64,000 bases of DNA from positions 62,001-126,000 of the forward strand of contig NZ_RJUF01000174.1 of NCBI RefSeq assembly GCF_024343775.1. Reading direction: 5' to 3'. Origin of the DNA: Lacihabitans soyangensis. GTDB taxonomy: Bacteria; Bacteroidota; Bacteroidia; Cytophagales; Spirosomataceae. Under the pieces are notes generated by a model that ran no database searches, was not told the origin of the DNA, and saw nothing but the letters and a program-made list of their open reading frames with translations. Shown here in pieces: positions 33,896-51,049 of the stretch (its first letter is position 1; each line of letters begins with the position of its first letter). The translations under genes were made by a program, and so were the position numbers.

Positions 33896-33945
33896 TTTTT
33901 ATTTTTATAGGGTTGAATATTAAATTTGGGTTTTGTCATTGACTC

Positions 33946-34194
33946 ATTTCGGCAAGCTCAATGACCATCGCTCAGACATCGAACTTCGGTCACTGAGGAG
34001 AGCCGAAGTGACGTGACGTTTTTGTCTTCTGCTAATTTCGGCAAGCTCAATGACCACCGCTCAGAAAACGCATTGGATACTGTGAGGAGCCGAGGTGAAG
34101 TGCCGCTTTTGTCTTCGACTCCTCTCAGACAACGTATCGGACACTGAGCGGAGCCGAAGTGTGGTCACTGAGCCAAGCCGAAGTGAAGTGGCCG
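33946..34194. repeat. Repeat-rich intergenic block between the symporter and sialidase genes
   Basis: Two direct copies start with TTTCGGCAAGCTCAATGACC (33948-33967 and 34036-34055), each followed by CGCTCAG. They are spaced about 88 bases apart and share GAGCCGA(A/G)GTGA and TTTTGTCTTC further on. A third, degenerate part (34119-34194) contains the same cores in inverted form (GAGCGGAGCCGAAGT and GTCACTGAGCCAAGCCGAAG), so the whole block can fold into an imperfect long hairpin. No ORF is supported here. It looks like a dispersed intergenic repeat of the host genome. Confidence 0.7.
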
Positions 34195-45865: not shown

Positions 45866-48676
45866 ATGGCAGAGTACAGACACCGAGAGATAGAGAAAAA
45901 ATGGCAACAATATTGGGAAAATAACCACACCAACAAAGTTGAAATAGACACCACAAAACCTAAATGCTACGTTCTGGATATGTTTCCATATCCATCTGGG
46001 GCAGGTTTGCACGTGGGTCATCCACTCGGGTACATCGCTTCTGACATCTATAGCAGATACAAAAAACTCAAGGGCTTCAATGTATTGCACCCTATGGGTT
46101 TTGACTCATTTGGTTTGCCTGCCGAGCAATATGCCATCCAAACGGGGCAGCATCCGGCCATTACGACAGAGAAAAACATCGAAACTTATATCGGCCAGTT
46201 AAAAAACATCGGTTTTTGCTACGATTGGTCGCGTGAAGTGCGTACTTCTGACCCTGCTTACTACAAATGGACACAGTGGATTTTCATGGAATTGTTTAAT
46301 GCTTGGTACAACAAGGAGACCGACAAAGCCGAAAATGTGGCTACTTTGTACGATTTGTTTGCCAAAGGCGGCTCAAATGCAGCCAAAGCGGTTTGTGACG
46401 AAGAATTGCCAGAATTTACAGCCGAAGAATGGAATTCATGGTCGAAAGAAAAACAATATGAGGTTTCTTTAAACTACCGTTTGACCTATTTGGCAGAGTC
46501 GGTGGTCAATTTCTGTCCTGAATTGGGCATGGTTTTGTCAAACGACGAAGTGAAAGACGGCGTTTCGGAACGTGGTGGCTATCCGGTGATTCAGAAAAAA
46601 ATGAGTCAGTGGATGATGCGTATCACCGCTTATTGCGACAGATTGATTTCTGGCTTGGATACCATCGACTGGTCGGAATCTTTGAAAGACCAACAACGCA
46701 ACTGGATTGGAAAATCCAATGGTGCTTCGGTAAAATTCGAAGTGGAGAATTCTGATAAAAAAATTGAAGTTTTCACTACAAGAATTGACACGATTTATGG
46801 CGTTTCGTTCCTTGTTTTGGCTCCAGAACACGAATGGGTGGCCGATTTGACCACTTCTGAGCAAAAAGCAAGCATAGAAGAATATATCCTAGAAACCCAA
46901 AAACGTTCGGAATTGGACCGTATGTCTGATGTTAAGAAAGTTTCGGGTGCGTTTACGGGTTCATACTGCATAAATCCATTCAATGGCGAGCGAGTGCCAA
47001 TTTGGATTGCAGATTACGTATTGGCTGGCTACGGAACAGGTGCTGTGATGGGTGTACCATCTGGCGATCAACGTGACTGGAATTTTGCAACGCATTTCAG
47101 TCTGCCCATCATTCCGATTTTAGATGCTCAAGCAGATATCGAAACCCAAGCAGATGCCACAAAAGAAGGAAAATACATCAATTCGGGCATGATAAATGGC
47201 TTGGATTACAAAGCAGCAACTGCGAAATTGGTGGCTTATTTGGAAGAAAATAAAATTGGACGTGGAAAGGTAAATTACCGTTTGCGTGATGCCGTTTTTG
47301 CTCGTCAACGTTATTGGGGAGAGCCAGTTCCGGTTTATTTCAAGCCGAATGCAGAGGGAACGCTAGTGCCTCATTTGGTAGATAAAAAGGATTTGCCTTT
47401 GATTTTACCTGAAATAGACAAATACCAACCTACAGAAACAGGTGAACCGCCTTTAGGGAGAGCTAAAAATTGGACTTATACACCCGAAGGTTCAACAGAA
47501 GCTTATCCACTAGAAATGAGCACCATGCCAGGTTGGGCAGGAAGTAGCTGGTATTGGTACCGCTACATGGACGCCAACAACGACACCGATTTTGCATCAA
47601 AAGAAGCATTGGATTATTGGCAAGATATTGATTTGTATTTGGGCGGAACCGAACACGCCACGGGTCACCTTTTGTATAGCCGTTTCTGGAACAAAGTTTT
47701 GAAAGATTTGGGCTATGTAAAACAAGAGGAATTTGCTAGGAAATTGATCAATCAGGGGATGATTCAGGGTCGTAGTAACTTTGTTTACAGAGTTAAAGAT
47801 GCCGAAAAACCAACTTTTGTTTCCTTGGGTTTAAAGGATCAATACGAAACCGTAAAACTTCATGTAGATGTAAACATCGTTGAGGCGGACGTTTTGGATT
47901 TAGAAAAATTCAAAACTACCAGAAACGATATTGGCGATGAACCACAATTCATCCTAGAGGACGGGAAATATATTTGCGGTTCTGAGGTTGAAAAAATGTC
48001 CAAATCCAAGTTCAATGTAGTCAATCCTGACACCTTGGTAGAAAGATACGGAGCAGACACCTTGCGTCTTTACGAGATGTTTTTGGGGCCTTTGACAGAG
48101 TCGAAACCTTGGGATACGCGTGGAATTGAAGGAACTTATAGATTTTTGAGGAAATTCTGGCGTTTGTTTTTCGATCAAAACGGTAATCCGATTTTCAAAG
48201 ATGAAGAACCTACCAAAGACGAATTAAAATCTTTGCACAAAACCATCAAAAAAGTAGCAGAAGATGTGGAGAATTTCTCTTTCAATACTTCAGTGAGCTC
48301 ATTCATGATTTGTGTAAACGAATTGACGGATCTAAAATGCCACAAATTGGCCATTTTGAAAGATTTGTTGATCATCATTTCTCCTTATGCTCCGCATATT
48401 GCAGAAGAACTTTGGGAGCAAATTGGCGAGACAGAGAGTATCACAAAAACTACTTTTCCGACTTTTAATCCTGCTTATTTGGTAGAAGATAGTTTTGAAT
48501 ATCCTATCCAAATCAATGGAAAAGTGAGGGTGAATATAAACTTCCCAGCAGATATGCCAAAAGAAGAAATAGAGAAGCAAGTATTGGCTAACGAGCAGGT
48601 TATCAAATGGATGGAAGGCAAAGAATTGAAAAAGATAATCGTAGTGCCGAAGCGTATTGTGAATGTGGTTGTTTGA
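45866..48676 (+). CDS. leuS: Leucyl-tRNA synthetase
   Basis: 936-residue class I aminoacyl-tRNA synthetase that charges tRNA-Leu. The HIGH motif is H49-V-G-H52 and the KMSKS motif is K710-M-S-K-S714. The connective polypeptide 1 editing domain (about 230-430) includes T-T-R-I-D-T-I-Y-G, and W-A-G-S-S-W-Y-W lies in the catalytic core. The C-terminal anticodon-binding domain ends with V-P-K-R-I-V-N-V-V-V. Longer than E. coli LeuRS (860) by insertions that are usual in Bacteroidota. It has its own promoter-like region and a terminator, so it is likely a single-gene transcript. Confidence 0.98.
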   Translation: MAEYRHREIEKKWQQYWENNHTNKVEIDTTKPKCYVLDMFPYPSGAGLHVGHPLGYIASDIYSRYKKLKGFNVLHPMGFDSFGLPAEQYAIQTGQHPAITTEKNIETYIGQLKNIGFCYDWSREVRTSDPAYYKWTQWIFMELFNAWYNKETDKAENVATLYDLFAKGGSNAAKAVCDEELPEFTAEEWNSWSKEKQYEVSLNYRLTYLAESVVNFCPELGMVLSNDEVKDGVSERGGYPVIQKKMSQWMMRITAYCDRLISGLDTIDWSESLKDQQRNWIGKSNGASVKFEVENSDKKIEVFTTRIDTIYGVSFLVLAPEHEWVADLTTSEQKASIEEYILETQKRSELDRMSDVKKVSGAFTGSYCINPFNGERVPIWIADYVLAGYGTGAVMGVPSGDQRDWNFATHFSLPIIPILDAQADIETQADATKEGKYINSGMINGLDYKAATAKLVAYLEENKIGRGKVNYRLRDAVFARQRYWGEPVPVYFKPNAEGTLVPHLVDKKDLPLILPEIDKYQPTETGEPPLGRAKNWTYTPEGSTEAYPLEMSTMPGWAGSSWYWYRYMDANNDTDFASKEALDYWQDIDLYLGGTEHATGHLLYSRFWNKVLKDLGYVKQEEFARKLINQGMIQGRSNFVYRVKDAEKPTFVSLGLKDQYETVKLHVDVNIVEADVLDLEKFKTTRNDIGDEPQFILEDGKYICGSEVEKMSKSKFNVVNPDTLVERYGADTLRLYEMFLGPLTESKPWDTRGIEGTYRFLRKFWRLFFDQNGNPIFKDEEPTKDELKSLHKTIKKVAEDVENFSFNTSVSSFMICVNELTDLKCHKLAILKDLLIIISPYAPHIAEELWEQIGETESITKTTFPTFNPAYLVEDSFEYPIQINGKVRVNINFPADMPKEEIEKQVLANEQVIKWMEGKELKKIIVVPKRIVNVVV

Positions 48677-48732: not shown

Positions 48733-48984
48733 TGAAGCCTGAGGATTTGAAGTCTTCAGGCTTTTTTTTAGGCTAAAATAAAAAAGTGCTTCTTAAATAA
48801 TTGGCAAAAATTAAACAAGCAAAAAGGACAGTAGGGTGGTCAAAGTATATTAACAACAAATAAAATCACGAATGAATCGACCTCATAGAGGTCGGACTTC
48901 GGCTGGTCGTTATATCTCAATCTAAAATCCTTCGACCGCTCTGCGGTCGGATTGGTGAAAACTAAATCGTTTTAAATTTCTAAA
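48733..48984. repeat. Long intergenic repeat, copy 1
   Basis: About 252 bases nearly identical to 49067-49317. It contains a terminator-like hairpin, an AT-rich core, and palindromes CGACCTCATAGAGGTCG (48878-48894) and CGACCGCTCTGCGGTCG (48933-48949). A further palindrome of the same type lies between the copies at 48991-49007. No ORF is present. The two palindromes differ by paired changes that keep the stem. Confidence 0.85.
48735..48769 (+). terminator. Terminator of leuS
   Basis: AAGCCTGA pairs with TCAGGCTT and is followed by a run of Ts. It lies about 60 bases after the leuS stop codon and forms the beginning of the first long repeat copy. A degenerate copy of the same hairpin opens the second repeat at 49069. 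Confidence 0.78.
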
Positions 48985-49066
48985 ATATTTCGACCTCTCT
49001 GAGGTCGGATAGGCCAACTCGAAACATTTTTTAAATTTATGATTTACATTGATTTTTAATTATTTG

Positions 49067-49317
49067 AACCTGAGGATTTAATGTCTTCAGCTTTTTTCAA
49101 TCTCCTAAAATAAAAAAGTGCTTCTTAAATAATTGGCAAAAATCAAACAAGCAAAAAGGACCGTAGAGCGGTCAAAGCATATTAACAACAAATAAAATCA
49201 CGAATGAATCGACCTCAGAGAGGTCGAACTTCGGCTGGTCGTTATATCTCAATCTATAATCCTTCGACCTCTCTGAGGTCGGGACAAGACAAACTAAACC
49301 TTTTTCAAATTTCTAAA
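49067..49317. repeat. Long intergenic repeat, copy 2
   Basis: About 251 bases in the same orientation as copy 1, with scattered substitutions. Palindromes at 49159-49173 (GACCGTAGAGCGGTC), 49210-49226 and 49265-49281. The matching segment in copy 1 of the first one has lost its symmetry. The stretch 48677-49366 holds these repeats and the two flanking terminators and no gene. Confidence 0.85.
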
Positions 49318-49328
49318 CAAAAAAATAC

Positions 49329-49364
49329 AAAAAAGCCAGTTTGAAGATTCAGACTGGCTTTTTT
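49329..49364 (-). terminator. Terminator of the Cthe_2159-like lipoprotein gene
   Basis: AAAAGCCAGT pairs with ACTGGCTTTT, with additional inner pairing, and is followed on the minus strand by a T-run. It starts 2 bases after the lipoprotein stop codon. Confidence 0.83.
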
Positions 49365-49366
49365 GT

Positions 49367-51049
49367 TTATAAATTTAATTGGGTGATGACTGCGTTTACA
49401 GTAAAATTCCCGTTGACTGTGCCATCTTTGTAAACACCAGTTTCGTAATAACCACTCTCTGCTGTACCTACCACCAATCCACCAGTAGATACCGTAAAGT
49501 TTCCTCCTTTTATCAATTTTGAAGAAGAGAAAATAAATGAAAAGTAATTGATTTGCGGCCTAAAAGTCACTAGGCTCTCTCCTTTGGCATTACTGATATT
49601 GATCAATTTTCCCGCCTCATTTCCTTTTTTAAAGTTTATGAGAACCGAATTTTGGGGTGAAATAGCACTTGGTGCTTGTAGAAACCGTGAGTTAGAACCA
49701 GAGGCTATAATTAGACCAGCAATCATTCGAAAAGTACCATTGTAATCCAATGGCACTTCGGCTGAAATCGGCCCGTGCATAATCATGGTTCCACCACTCA
49801 TTTCCACATTACCATTACTATCCAAAAGATCGCCAGAAGTACTTCTCAAAATCAGGGTACCATTTTTTATGTAGACATACGAACCATCATTTTGTTCTGA
49901 ATCTCTAATAGATGAGGCACTAATACAGTCATTTAGCGTGCTTAATTCATACTTTCCAGCACCGATATTGATGGTTTTGGCTTCAAAACCTTCAAAAGCA
50001 TAAAGGACTGTTATTTTGCAATTTTCTATGGTAAGTGAGTTGTCGCCATGAAAAGCGTCATCACCCGTCTGTACTTTGTATTCACCGCCAAGTATTCTAA
50101 GGTCCGAATTAGAATGAATGGCGTCATCTGCACAATTGAGACTCAATTGTTTTGCTATTACATTAACCTCATTCTCGGCCTTTATTCCTTTTGCGGAGTT
50201 TCCATTGGGCAAAAAAGCTGCAAAGCCTCCCCCAGCTTTAATATTATAAACACCACCATTTATATTAACTTTTGAATAAGCCGAAATTCCATCACCCTTG
50301 GCAGTTATATCAAACAGACCATCGTTTATTTCTATAAAACCAGAATTCCTATTGACCTCATTATCAGACTTAAGAGCGTCACCACCAGCTATCAAATCGA
50401 ATTCTCCGCCTCGAATTACTACAAAATCTTTCCCCCTGATAGCCTCATCTTTGGCATCGACTTTTATTTTACCGTTTCGAATCAACAAACCATCTTTTGA
50501 CGAAAGACCATCTTCAAAATTTGACTTTACATTCAAAACCCCTTCACCATCAACAATCGTGAAGGTTTGGCTGTAAATGGTAGCATTTTGTCCATCTTGG
50601 GTCAATAAGTAATTTTCATTATCACTGAAATTATTGACAGTTCCTTTCTCTAAAAAAATCAAAACCCTTTCCGCTTTATCAATAAACAAGGACGAACCTT
50701 TGTCAGAATGCACCTCTACCCCATTCAAAATTAGCCTTACAATATCATTTCCGGCCGATTGAACTATAATCTGGCCATTACTTAGCTTTCCAGAGATTCT
50801 ATAAGTGCCTGGTGCTGAAATTTTTAAATTTCCTTGTGAAAAATCCACTCCTGAACCAACTATTTCAGCTGAATTATCCTTGAGAATGATTAATTTTTCC
50901 ACATTGGCCTCCCATTTATAGTCTTTTTCAGTTTCCAAATCTTCCAAAGTTTTGAAAACCTCCGTCGTTGGTTCAATGACCTCAGCTTCCTTTTTGCAAG
51001 AAACGAGGCTAACGATACCAACAAATAAGATTGTCCAAAAACTTTTCAT
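49367..51049 (-). CDS. Carbohydrate-binding-like lipoprotein (Cthe_2159 family)
   Basis: 560-residue lipoprotein with lipobox L-V-S-C (Cys18). The mature protein is dominated by short repeating strands with Gly, Asp and Asn turns, such as G-D-G-I-S-A-Y-S-K-V-N-I-N-G-G, D-D-A-I-H-S-N-S-D-L-R-I-L-G-G and G-D-D-A-F-H-G-D-N-S-L. This is the pattern of the Cthe_2159 right-handed beta-helix family (PF14262), members of which bind calcium and acidic polysaccharide. It is probably on the outer membrane or periplasmic face. It is transcribed alone, ending in a strong terminator. A role in polysaccharide binding or cell-surface structure is inferred from family. Confidence 0.85.
   Translation of the reverse strand: MKSFWTILFVGIVSLVSCKKEAEVIEPTTEVFKTLEDLETEKDYKWEANVEKLIILKDNSAEIVGSGVDFSQGNLKISAPGTYRISGKLSNGQIIVQSAGNDIVRLILNGVEVHSDKGSSLFIDKAERVLIFLEKGTVNNFSDNENYLLTQDGQNATIYSQTFTIVDGEGVLNVKSNFEDGLSSKDGLLIRNGKIKVDAKDEAIRGKDFVVIRGGEFDLIAGGDALKSDNEVNRNSGFIEINDGLFDITAKGDGISAYSKVNINGGVYNIKAGGGFAAFLPNGNSAKGIKAENEVNVIAKQLSLNCADDAIHSNSDLRILGGEYKVQTGDDAFHGDNSLTIENCKITVLYAFEGFEAKTINIGAGKYELSTLNDCISASSIRDSEQNDGSYVYIKNGTLILRSTSGDLLDSNGNVEMSGGTMIMHGPISAEVPLDYNGTFRMIAGLIIASGSNSRFLQAPSAISPQNSVLINFKKGNEAGKLINISNAKGESLVTFRPQINYFSFIFSSSKLIKGGNFTVSTGGLVVGTAESGYYETGVYKDGTVNGNFTVNAVITQLNL

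Follow-up and report, generated by a model that had tools for sequence, protein, structure and literature searches.

What kind of element fills the palindrome-rich DNA between two convergent genes of Lacihabitans soyangensis, and which enzyme, if any, does it belong to? The block lies at positions 48733–49317 of the window, the whole stretch of 64 000 nt that was analysed. The initial annotation described a tandem intergenic repeat and proposed a hairpin under selection, either a REP-like element or a structured RNA, with a REP-associated tyrosine transposase (RAYT) as a possible partner. In what follows, G000 is the window's own genome and G001–G009 are nine other genomes of the Lacihabitans group; C-numbers are contigs (the C179 and C194 genes are those of G000) and L-numbers are loci fetched from genomes.

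Structure of the block

Self-alignment confirms a tandem duplication. The two copies are identical at 218 of 247 aligned positions (88.3%, 2 gap columns), and a core of 178 nt is 94 per cent identical. The repeat of about 250 bp annotated earlier corresponds to the length of a copy, since the copies are spaced 332 nt apart, with 84 nt of unshared DNA between them; this DNA holds one further palindrome at 48992. The block had been annotated as free of ORFs, and none that begins within it exceeds 46 aa. A small ORF at 49204–49344 was dropped because its counterpart in copy 1 is shorter than 20 aa and absent from the ORF list. The terminator-like hairpins reported for the start of each copy are present, beginning at 48734 and 49070. 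Elsewhere in the window, positions 33931–34120 hold a tandem repeat with a unit of 89 nt (2.2 copies, 79% matches).

A covariance model, R1, was built from palindrome sites of G000, G001, G002, G003 and G006. From 69 sites, 67 were used, one lying inside a coding region and one being a duplicate. With this model the block resolves into seven copies of a directional palindrome, six of them clear and one decayed. Four of the window elements (either strand) are also in the R1 training set, since all six clear elements were found by the scan that supplied the training sites. The features are as follows.

45866–48676, plus strand: leuS, leucyl-tRNA synthetase, upstream neighbour of the block
48734–48764, plus strand: terminator-like hairpin after leuS (terminator-like scan)
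48738–48984, no strand: tandem duplication, copy 1 (self-alignment)
48825–48854, minus strand: decayed palindrome element (R1 14.1 bits, E 0.26)
48877–48906, minus strand: palindrome element, stem GACCTC, without CTA box (R1 25.7 bits)
48921–48950, plus strand: palindrome element, stem GACCGC, CTA box at 48922–48924 (R1 39.3 bits; also seen in the sequence)
48979–49008, plus strand: palindrome element between the copies, stem GACCTC, CTA box at 48980–48982 (R1 41.8 bits)
49069–49317, no strand: tandem duplication, copy 2 (self-alignment)
49070–49090, plus strand: duplicated terminator-like hairpin (terminator-like scan, repeat comparison)
49157–49186, minus strand: palindrome element, stem GACCGC/ACGGTC, TTA replacing CTA (R1 31.6 bits)
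49209–49238, minus strand: palindrome element, stem GACCTC, without CTA box (R1 31.2 bits)
49253–49282, plus strand: palindrome element, stem GACCTC, CTA box at 49254–49256 (R1 37.3 bits; also seen in the sequence)
49367–51049, minus strand: convergent gene with a Cthe_2159 domain, the other neighbour of the block

Within a cluster, neighbouring palindromes of the window are 52 to 58 nt apart, and three of the seven elements carry the CTA box (48922, 48980 and 49254). The several CGACC…GGTCG palindromes noted initially are no chance occurrence: the 64-kb window contains five exact matches to CGACCN7GGTCG and one with a single mismatch, all six inside the block, and shuffled sequences, with up to one mismatch allowed, give a mean of 0.27 and never reach six (0 of 100).

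The stem is indeed kept while its bases differ, both between the copies and relative to an aligned array of G003. The sequences GACCGCTCTGCGGTC (48934) and GACCTCTCTGAGGTC (49266) represent the same element in copy 1 and copy 2 and differ only by a compensating pair, a G–C to T–A exchange across the stem. Likewise, the GACCTC element at 48979–49008 is aligned with a GACCGC element of G003, so that one element reads GACCTC/GAGGTC in G000 and GACCGC/GCGGTC in G003. In the pair counts over the model sites, column pair 13:29 has CG in 26 sites, UA in 25, one-side changes in five, another two-side change in one and unpaired bases in 10; the counts for the remaining pairs are biased, a near-complete stem having been a condition for selecting a site, and only 13:29 is free of this choice. 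Quasi-palindrome (template-switch) correction yields paired changes in stems. The paired changes are real, and the selection proposed for the hairpin does not follow from them, since template-switch correction or replacement of units would also produce them; they may come from hairpin selection, template switching or unit-by-unit replacement. At one intergenic site of G005 and G002 (L200 and L201), a single palindrome is present in each genome with its loop reversed (CGCAGAGCG versus CGCTCTGCG), as if the hairpin had flipped.

Palindromes and Y1 transposase genes in Lacihabitans

The loose pattern GACCN7GGTC was uninformative in G000 (63 matches versus 59 for the control), and the six-pair pattern GACCNCNNNGNGGTC was therefore used. 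It occurs 31 times in G000, versus once for the reversed control pattern, so that the whole-genome search suggested by the initial annotation does reveal further copies. The corresponding counts (palindromes/control) are 54/0 in G003, 14/3 in G001, 13/2 in G005, 18/5 in G004, 7/1 in G002, 6/1 in G008, 3/0 in G006, 1/1 in G007 and 1/6 in G009. R1 matches (E ≤ 0.1) number 57 in G003, 42 in G000, 17 in G001, 14 in G005, 12 in G004, six each in G006 and G002, five in G008 and none in G007 and G009. The palindromes are short, intergenic, repeated and clustered in both orientations, as REP elements are. A structured RNA finds no such backing: the 18 Rfam matches (E ≤ 1) all fall below the gathering score and were treated as chance, and the array holds copies in either orientation.

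The array following leuS in G003 aligns with that of the window (234 of 330 positions, 100 gap columns). No GACC palindrome was found downstream of leuS in G005, G008, G001, G006, G004, G009 or G007; G002 gave no leuS match and is outside this comparison. Given that leuS is 90 per cent identical to that of G000 in G005, 86 per cent in G008, 85 per cent in G003 and 80 per cent in G001, the presence of the array does not simply follow relatedness. By eye, some G000 clusters have counterparts of other copy number (C27/L181, C12/L182 and C11/L185). A cluster of the GACCCC type on contig C12 of G004 (L190) has several palindromes flanked by CTATAAACAT-like sequences or GTTTATAG.

The G000 genome contains 12 matches to PF01797 (Y1_Tnp). 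Across all its 31 palindromes, adjacency to a Y1 gene is confined to C179 (one side of the gene) and C194 (both sides). The C194 gene carries an internal stop; its intact relative in G003 (L166) is flanked by GACCTC and GACCGC palindromes, the stem types of the window. Relatives of the C179 gene in G003, G001 and G002 (L165, L167 and L168) are accompanied by GACCCC palindromes, L173 of G006 by GACCGC and GACCCT types, and L161 of G003 and L048 of G005 by CGACCCCTTCGGGGTCG palindromes. Clusters thus adjoin subclass-1.2-type genes (see below), two in G000 and relatives in G001, G002, G003, G005 and G006, and within Lacihabitans the stem type follows the type of subclass 1.2 enzyme. In G000, no such cluster is present beside the genes of C11, C195 and C187, the IS200-type genes of C184 and C198 or five class-2-like genes; for the C195, C187 and C11 flanks this means no palindrome family by the set criterion, one listing holding only stems of at least 7 bp. 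The family is scattered through the genus, with clusters next to Y1 HUH transposase genes of subclass 1.2 type.

Other Y1 loci of these genomes show features of their own. The same subclass-1.2-type protein is found on contigs C10, C25 and C26 of G003 (L160–L162), as near-identical copies or by an effect of assembly. A class-2-like Y1 gene on C3 of G000 (L062, 1974–2794) has three hairpins around AGCGATTTTTCAAATCGCT, another palindrome family. A divergent subclass-1.2-type gene on C2 of G003 (L164), with a very long branch in the tree, has four AAGCC..GGCTT palindromes on one side.

Where intact, the palindrome-flanking genes encode the motifs DH[VI]H … WQ … Y-x3-Q-x2-HH; the tyrosine part of the C194 gene lies beyond the stop. 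As far as the available text of Quentin et al. (2018, PMC6006769) goes, the Y-x3-Q-x2-HH signature defines TnpA_Y1 subclass 1.2, found mostly in Cyanobacteria and Bacteroidetes at low copy number and generally without IS200 end structures. The same text places it close to IS200 transposases, without IS properties or a known partner DNA, and the REP column of its table reads 'no'. By motif, the palindrome-linked enzymes are therefore of predicted subclass 1.2 type. All three subclass-1.2-type proteins compared with NCBIfam, two of them from array loci, score above the cut-off of the IS200 family; with the RAYT family, two proteins reach 26 and 29.6 bits (cut-off 80) and the C179 protein gives no match. 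The motifs and the RAYT profile scores rule out a classical RAYT (class 2, YxxNP). The REP-associated transposase anticipated initially is therefore represented by Y1 genes that do adjoin the palindromes, and the partner is of another kind. PADLOC gave no match for the C179 protein, and a profile search among solved structures pointed to the ISDra2 and IS608 TnpA proteins. The model of the L166 protein (mean pLDDT 93.3) has the HUH transposase fold. A fold search ranks IS200/IS605 transposases first by E-value and the Escherichia coli TnpA_REP complex (4er8) at rank 30; the TM-scores are about equal (0.56 to 0.60 for IS200/IS605 versus 0.57 for 4er8), so that fold comparison by itself does not discriminate between the classes.

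The link and its CTA tag in other genomes

The survey covered the best 80 of 580 confirmed relatives. Within 1 kb of the gene, a repeated hairpin family was found at 18 of the 48 loci of this set with full flanks, versus one of 48 for control flanks at 3–4 kb. With coding DNA masked, a hairpin family lies near the gene at 23 of these best 80 loci and in distant non-coding DNA at two of 80. The near and far flanks comprised 47 893 and 31 492 bases of non-coding DNA, with 2.8 and 1.4 hairpins per kb, respectively. In 39 paired loci drawn from the same best 80, with 200 or more non-coding bases in each flank, the family is present near the gene only in 13, far only in none and in both in two (p = 0.0002). 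When 19 further loci from genomes near that of the window are added, it is present at 39 of 99 loci and absent by the criterion at 60, a proportion that cannot be taken as an unbiased rate, several of the 19 having been selected once arrays were known. Some genes are represented by two loci (L071 and L048 coincide; L072 and L162, on contigs of equal length, are a possible pair).

A tree was computed for 92 of the 99 proteins, six with internal stops and one other having been removed by the stop/X filter. The palindrome trait is clustered on it, requiring 19 changes versus a shuffled mean of 28.2 (0 of 500 as low). The trait is absent in 25 of 26 rows of one clade (support 100/99) and present in all six members of the Lacihabitans clade (L055, L165, L166, L167, L168 and L173). 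Distances between enzymes and between stems are weakly correlated (r = 0.22, n = 36; 51 of 10 000 permutations as high).

Palindromes of the GACCYC type (palindromes/control) were counted in the genomes of L073 (4/0), L074 (16/0), L075 (14/0), L080 (5/0), L119 (10/0), L078 (0/0), L083 (1/0) and L081 (1/2); the GACTCC type occurs three times in the genome of L078, six in that of L084, eight in L089, 18 in L098 and 10 in L119 (control 0). Most of the GACCYC palindromes lie beside the transposase in one stretch in the L074 (14 of 16) and L075 (nine of 14) genomes, and the 10 of the L119 genome are spread over six contigs. These counts are far below those usual for classical REPs.

Each unit has a 6-bp stem that closes a 3-nt loop and is preceded by a 5′ tag, in which CTA stands 12 nt ahead of the stem and an almost invariant T 3 nt ahead of it. 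Orienting the Lacihabitans palindromes solely by their loop shows much stronger conservation on the 5′ side than on the 3′ side. The conserved columns are C-T-A (−12 to −10) and a T at −3, present in 39 of 40 copies in G000 and 29 of 29 elsewhere, and there is no GTAG consensus at the 5′ foot of the hairpin; these column counts still include the one coding-region site. At 29 loci outside Lacihabitans, CTA at the same distance ranks first of 1344 features (64 trinucleotides at 21 distances). Its score is 14.8 of 29, the highest value among 300 rotations of the flanks being 8.2 (0 of 300 as high). Written out for 30 loci, Lacihabitans included, the sites read close to TTTCTA(T/C)AAACATTT. The tag precedes varied stems (GACCCC, GACTCT, GATGCC, TGCTCC, AATCCC and GGGTCC); across phyla the stems differ, and the CTA box keeps a constant distance from the hairpin on its 5′ side. 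Outside Lacihabitans, 11 of the 29 families lack CTA at this place in every copy.

CTA is in place at 82 of 196 hairpins near genes with arrays, eight of 53 near genes without arrays, 11 of 164 far from the gene and two of 32 near 12 genes of a short subclass 1.2 type. From DNA alone, a search for CTATAAACATNNGACNCCNNNGGNGTC returned seven sites, all on the minus strand, in four of the 395 genomes of the phylum (control 0); two of the seven have a subclass-1.2-type gene within 1.5 kb on either side.

Interpretation and comparison with known systems

We conclude, at a probability of roughly 70 per cent, that the block is an orphan cluster of REP-like palindromes, duplicated in place, from a family tied to subclass-1.2-type Y1 transposases. 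The transposase would bind the hairpin as single-stranded DNA and, directed by the bases adjoining the stem, cut at the CTA box or close to it. Cutting would spread or amplify the units, as is thought for IS200/IS605 and TnpA_REP enzymes; mobility and cleavage at CTA are drawn by analogy with these. For these systems, the available text of PMC8266576 describes a guide tetranucleotide 5′ of the hairpin and cleavage at CT, in one system also at CA. The array of the window is probably a relic altered by duplication and drift, since the G000 gene that most resembles the one accompanying these stems, C194, is broken by a stop. Several results weigh against the main conclusion: the lack of a palindrome family by the criterion at 60 of 99 loci and in 25 of 26 rows of one clade, the lack of CTA in place in 11 of 29 families and its presence in only three of the seven window elements, the weak correlation of stem and enzyme distances, the palindromes of G004 with its two weak Y1 matches, and the larger total of non-coding DNA in the near flanks. 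On balance, we also favour, somewhat less firmly, a CTA-tagged super-family of REPs (CTA(T/C)AAACAT-like) with its own lineage of enzymes, subclass 1.2, beside the GTAG/RAYT system, in which the stems change and the tag stays. If so, REPs and transposases would have become paired on two or more occasions within the Y1 family, with CTA as the cleavage site.

It is improbable that the palindromes are bidirectional terminators or mRNA-end hairpins with incidental nearness to transposase genes. The block does lie between convergent genes, and the terminator-like scan gives five matches versus a shuffled mean of 0.5, two of the palindromes passing on the minus strand; the clear terminators, however, are the separate hairpins at 48734 and 49070, the hairpin family is far commoner near transposase genes than away from them, and the CTA tag recurs at a constant distance from hairpins of several stem types, a feature for which a terminator has no use. 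Equally improbable as a full account is that the block is neutral debris whose paired changes result from template-switch correction or unit replacement without hairpin selection. Decayed and perfect units lie side by side, the loops at one site in G005 and G002 are reversed, and among the 11 matches listed for one G003 cluster seven stand at exact 52-nt steps, pointing to local amplification. Such processes leave unexplained the fixed CTA tag in other phyla and the adjacency to transposase genes; they could well apply to the copies of the window alongside an origin as a REP-like cluster tied to subclass-1.2-type enzymes. Least probable is that a classical class 2 RAYT is the partner of the palindromes, with subclass 1.2 genes as bystanders: G000 also has its five class-2-like genes, subclass 2.6 of Bacteroidetes has atypical structures without GTAG in the available text of PMC6006769, and G004 has such palindromes with two weak Y1 matches in the PF01797 search, the one read being class-2-like, but none of the 31 G000 palindromes is beside a class-2-like gene, none of the 35 hairpins close to 14 genes of class 1.1 or class 2 has CTA in place, and stem type in Lacihabitans follows the subclass 1.2 type.

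The wider result is that CTA-tagged palindromes accompany predicted subclass-1.2-type transposases in many lineages; the literature searched held no report of REPs for this subclass. On this evidence, these enzymes appear to maintain a repeated hairpin family of their own, like their better-known cousin. A defined partner sequence makes the biochemistry of subclass 1.2 directly testable, and the system offers a second case for the joint change of a transposase and its short palindromes; the CTA tag would allow such elements to be found and annotated in Bacteroidota genomes.

One close parallel is the REP/BIME system with its RAYT (REPtron), which likewise consists of short intergenic palindromes, clustered in both orientations, with copies beside a Y1 HUH gene. 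The tag differs (CTA at −12 here, GTAG or GTGG at the foot of the stem there), as does the enzyme (Y-x3-Q-x2-HH versus YxxNP), and canonical REPs usually exceed 100 per genome, whereas tens of copies are found here (42 in G000, 57 in G003). The enzymes match subclass 1.2, as described in the available text of PMC6006769, in DH[VI]H, WQ, Y-x3-Q-x2-HH, size, low copy number and occurrence in Bacteroidota; they depart from it in that repeated palindromes adjoin many members, whereas the REP entry there is 'no'. IS200/IS605 elements (IS608, ISDra2) provide the closest solved structures by profile and fold E-value and also have hairpins near the gene. An IS200/IS605 insertion sequence, however, is a single-gene element with one subterminal hairpin at either end, unlike the many-hairpin arrays found here on one or both sides of the gene and also away from any transposase gene. 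The CGTC-tagged palindromes described in the available text of PMC3733652 are similar in that families are defined by a tag at one end of the palindrome; their tag is different, and no transposase partner is given there, in contrast to the partner found here.
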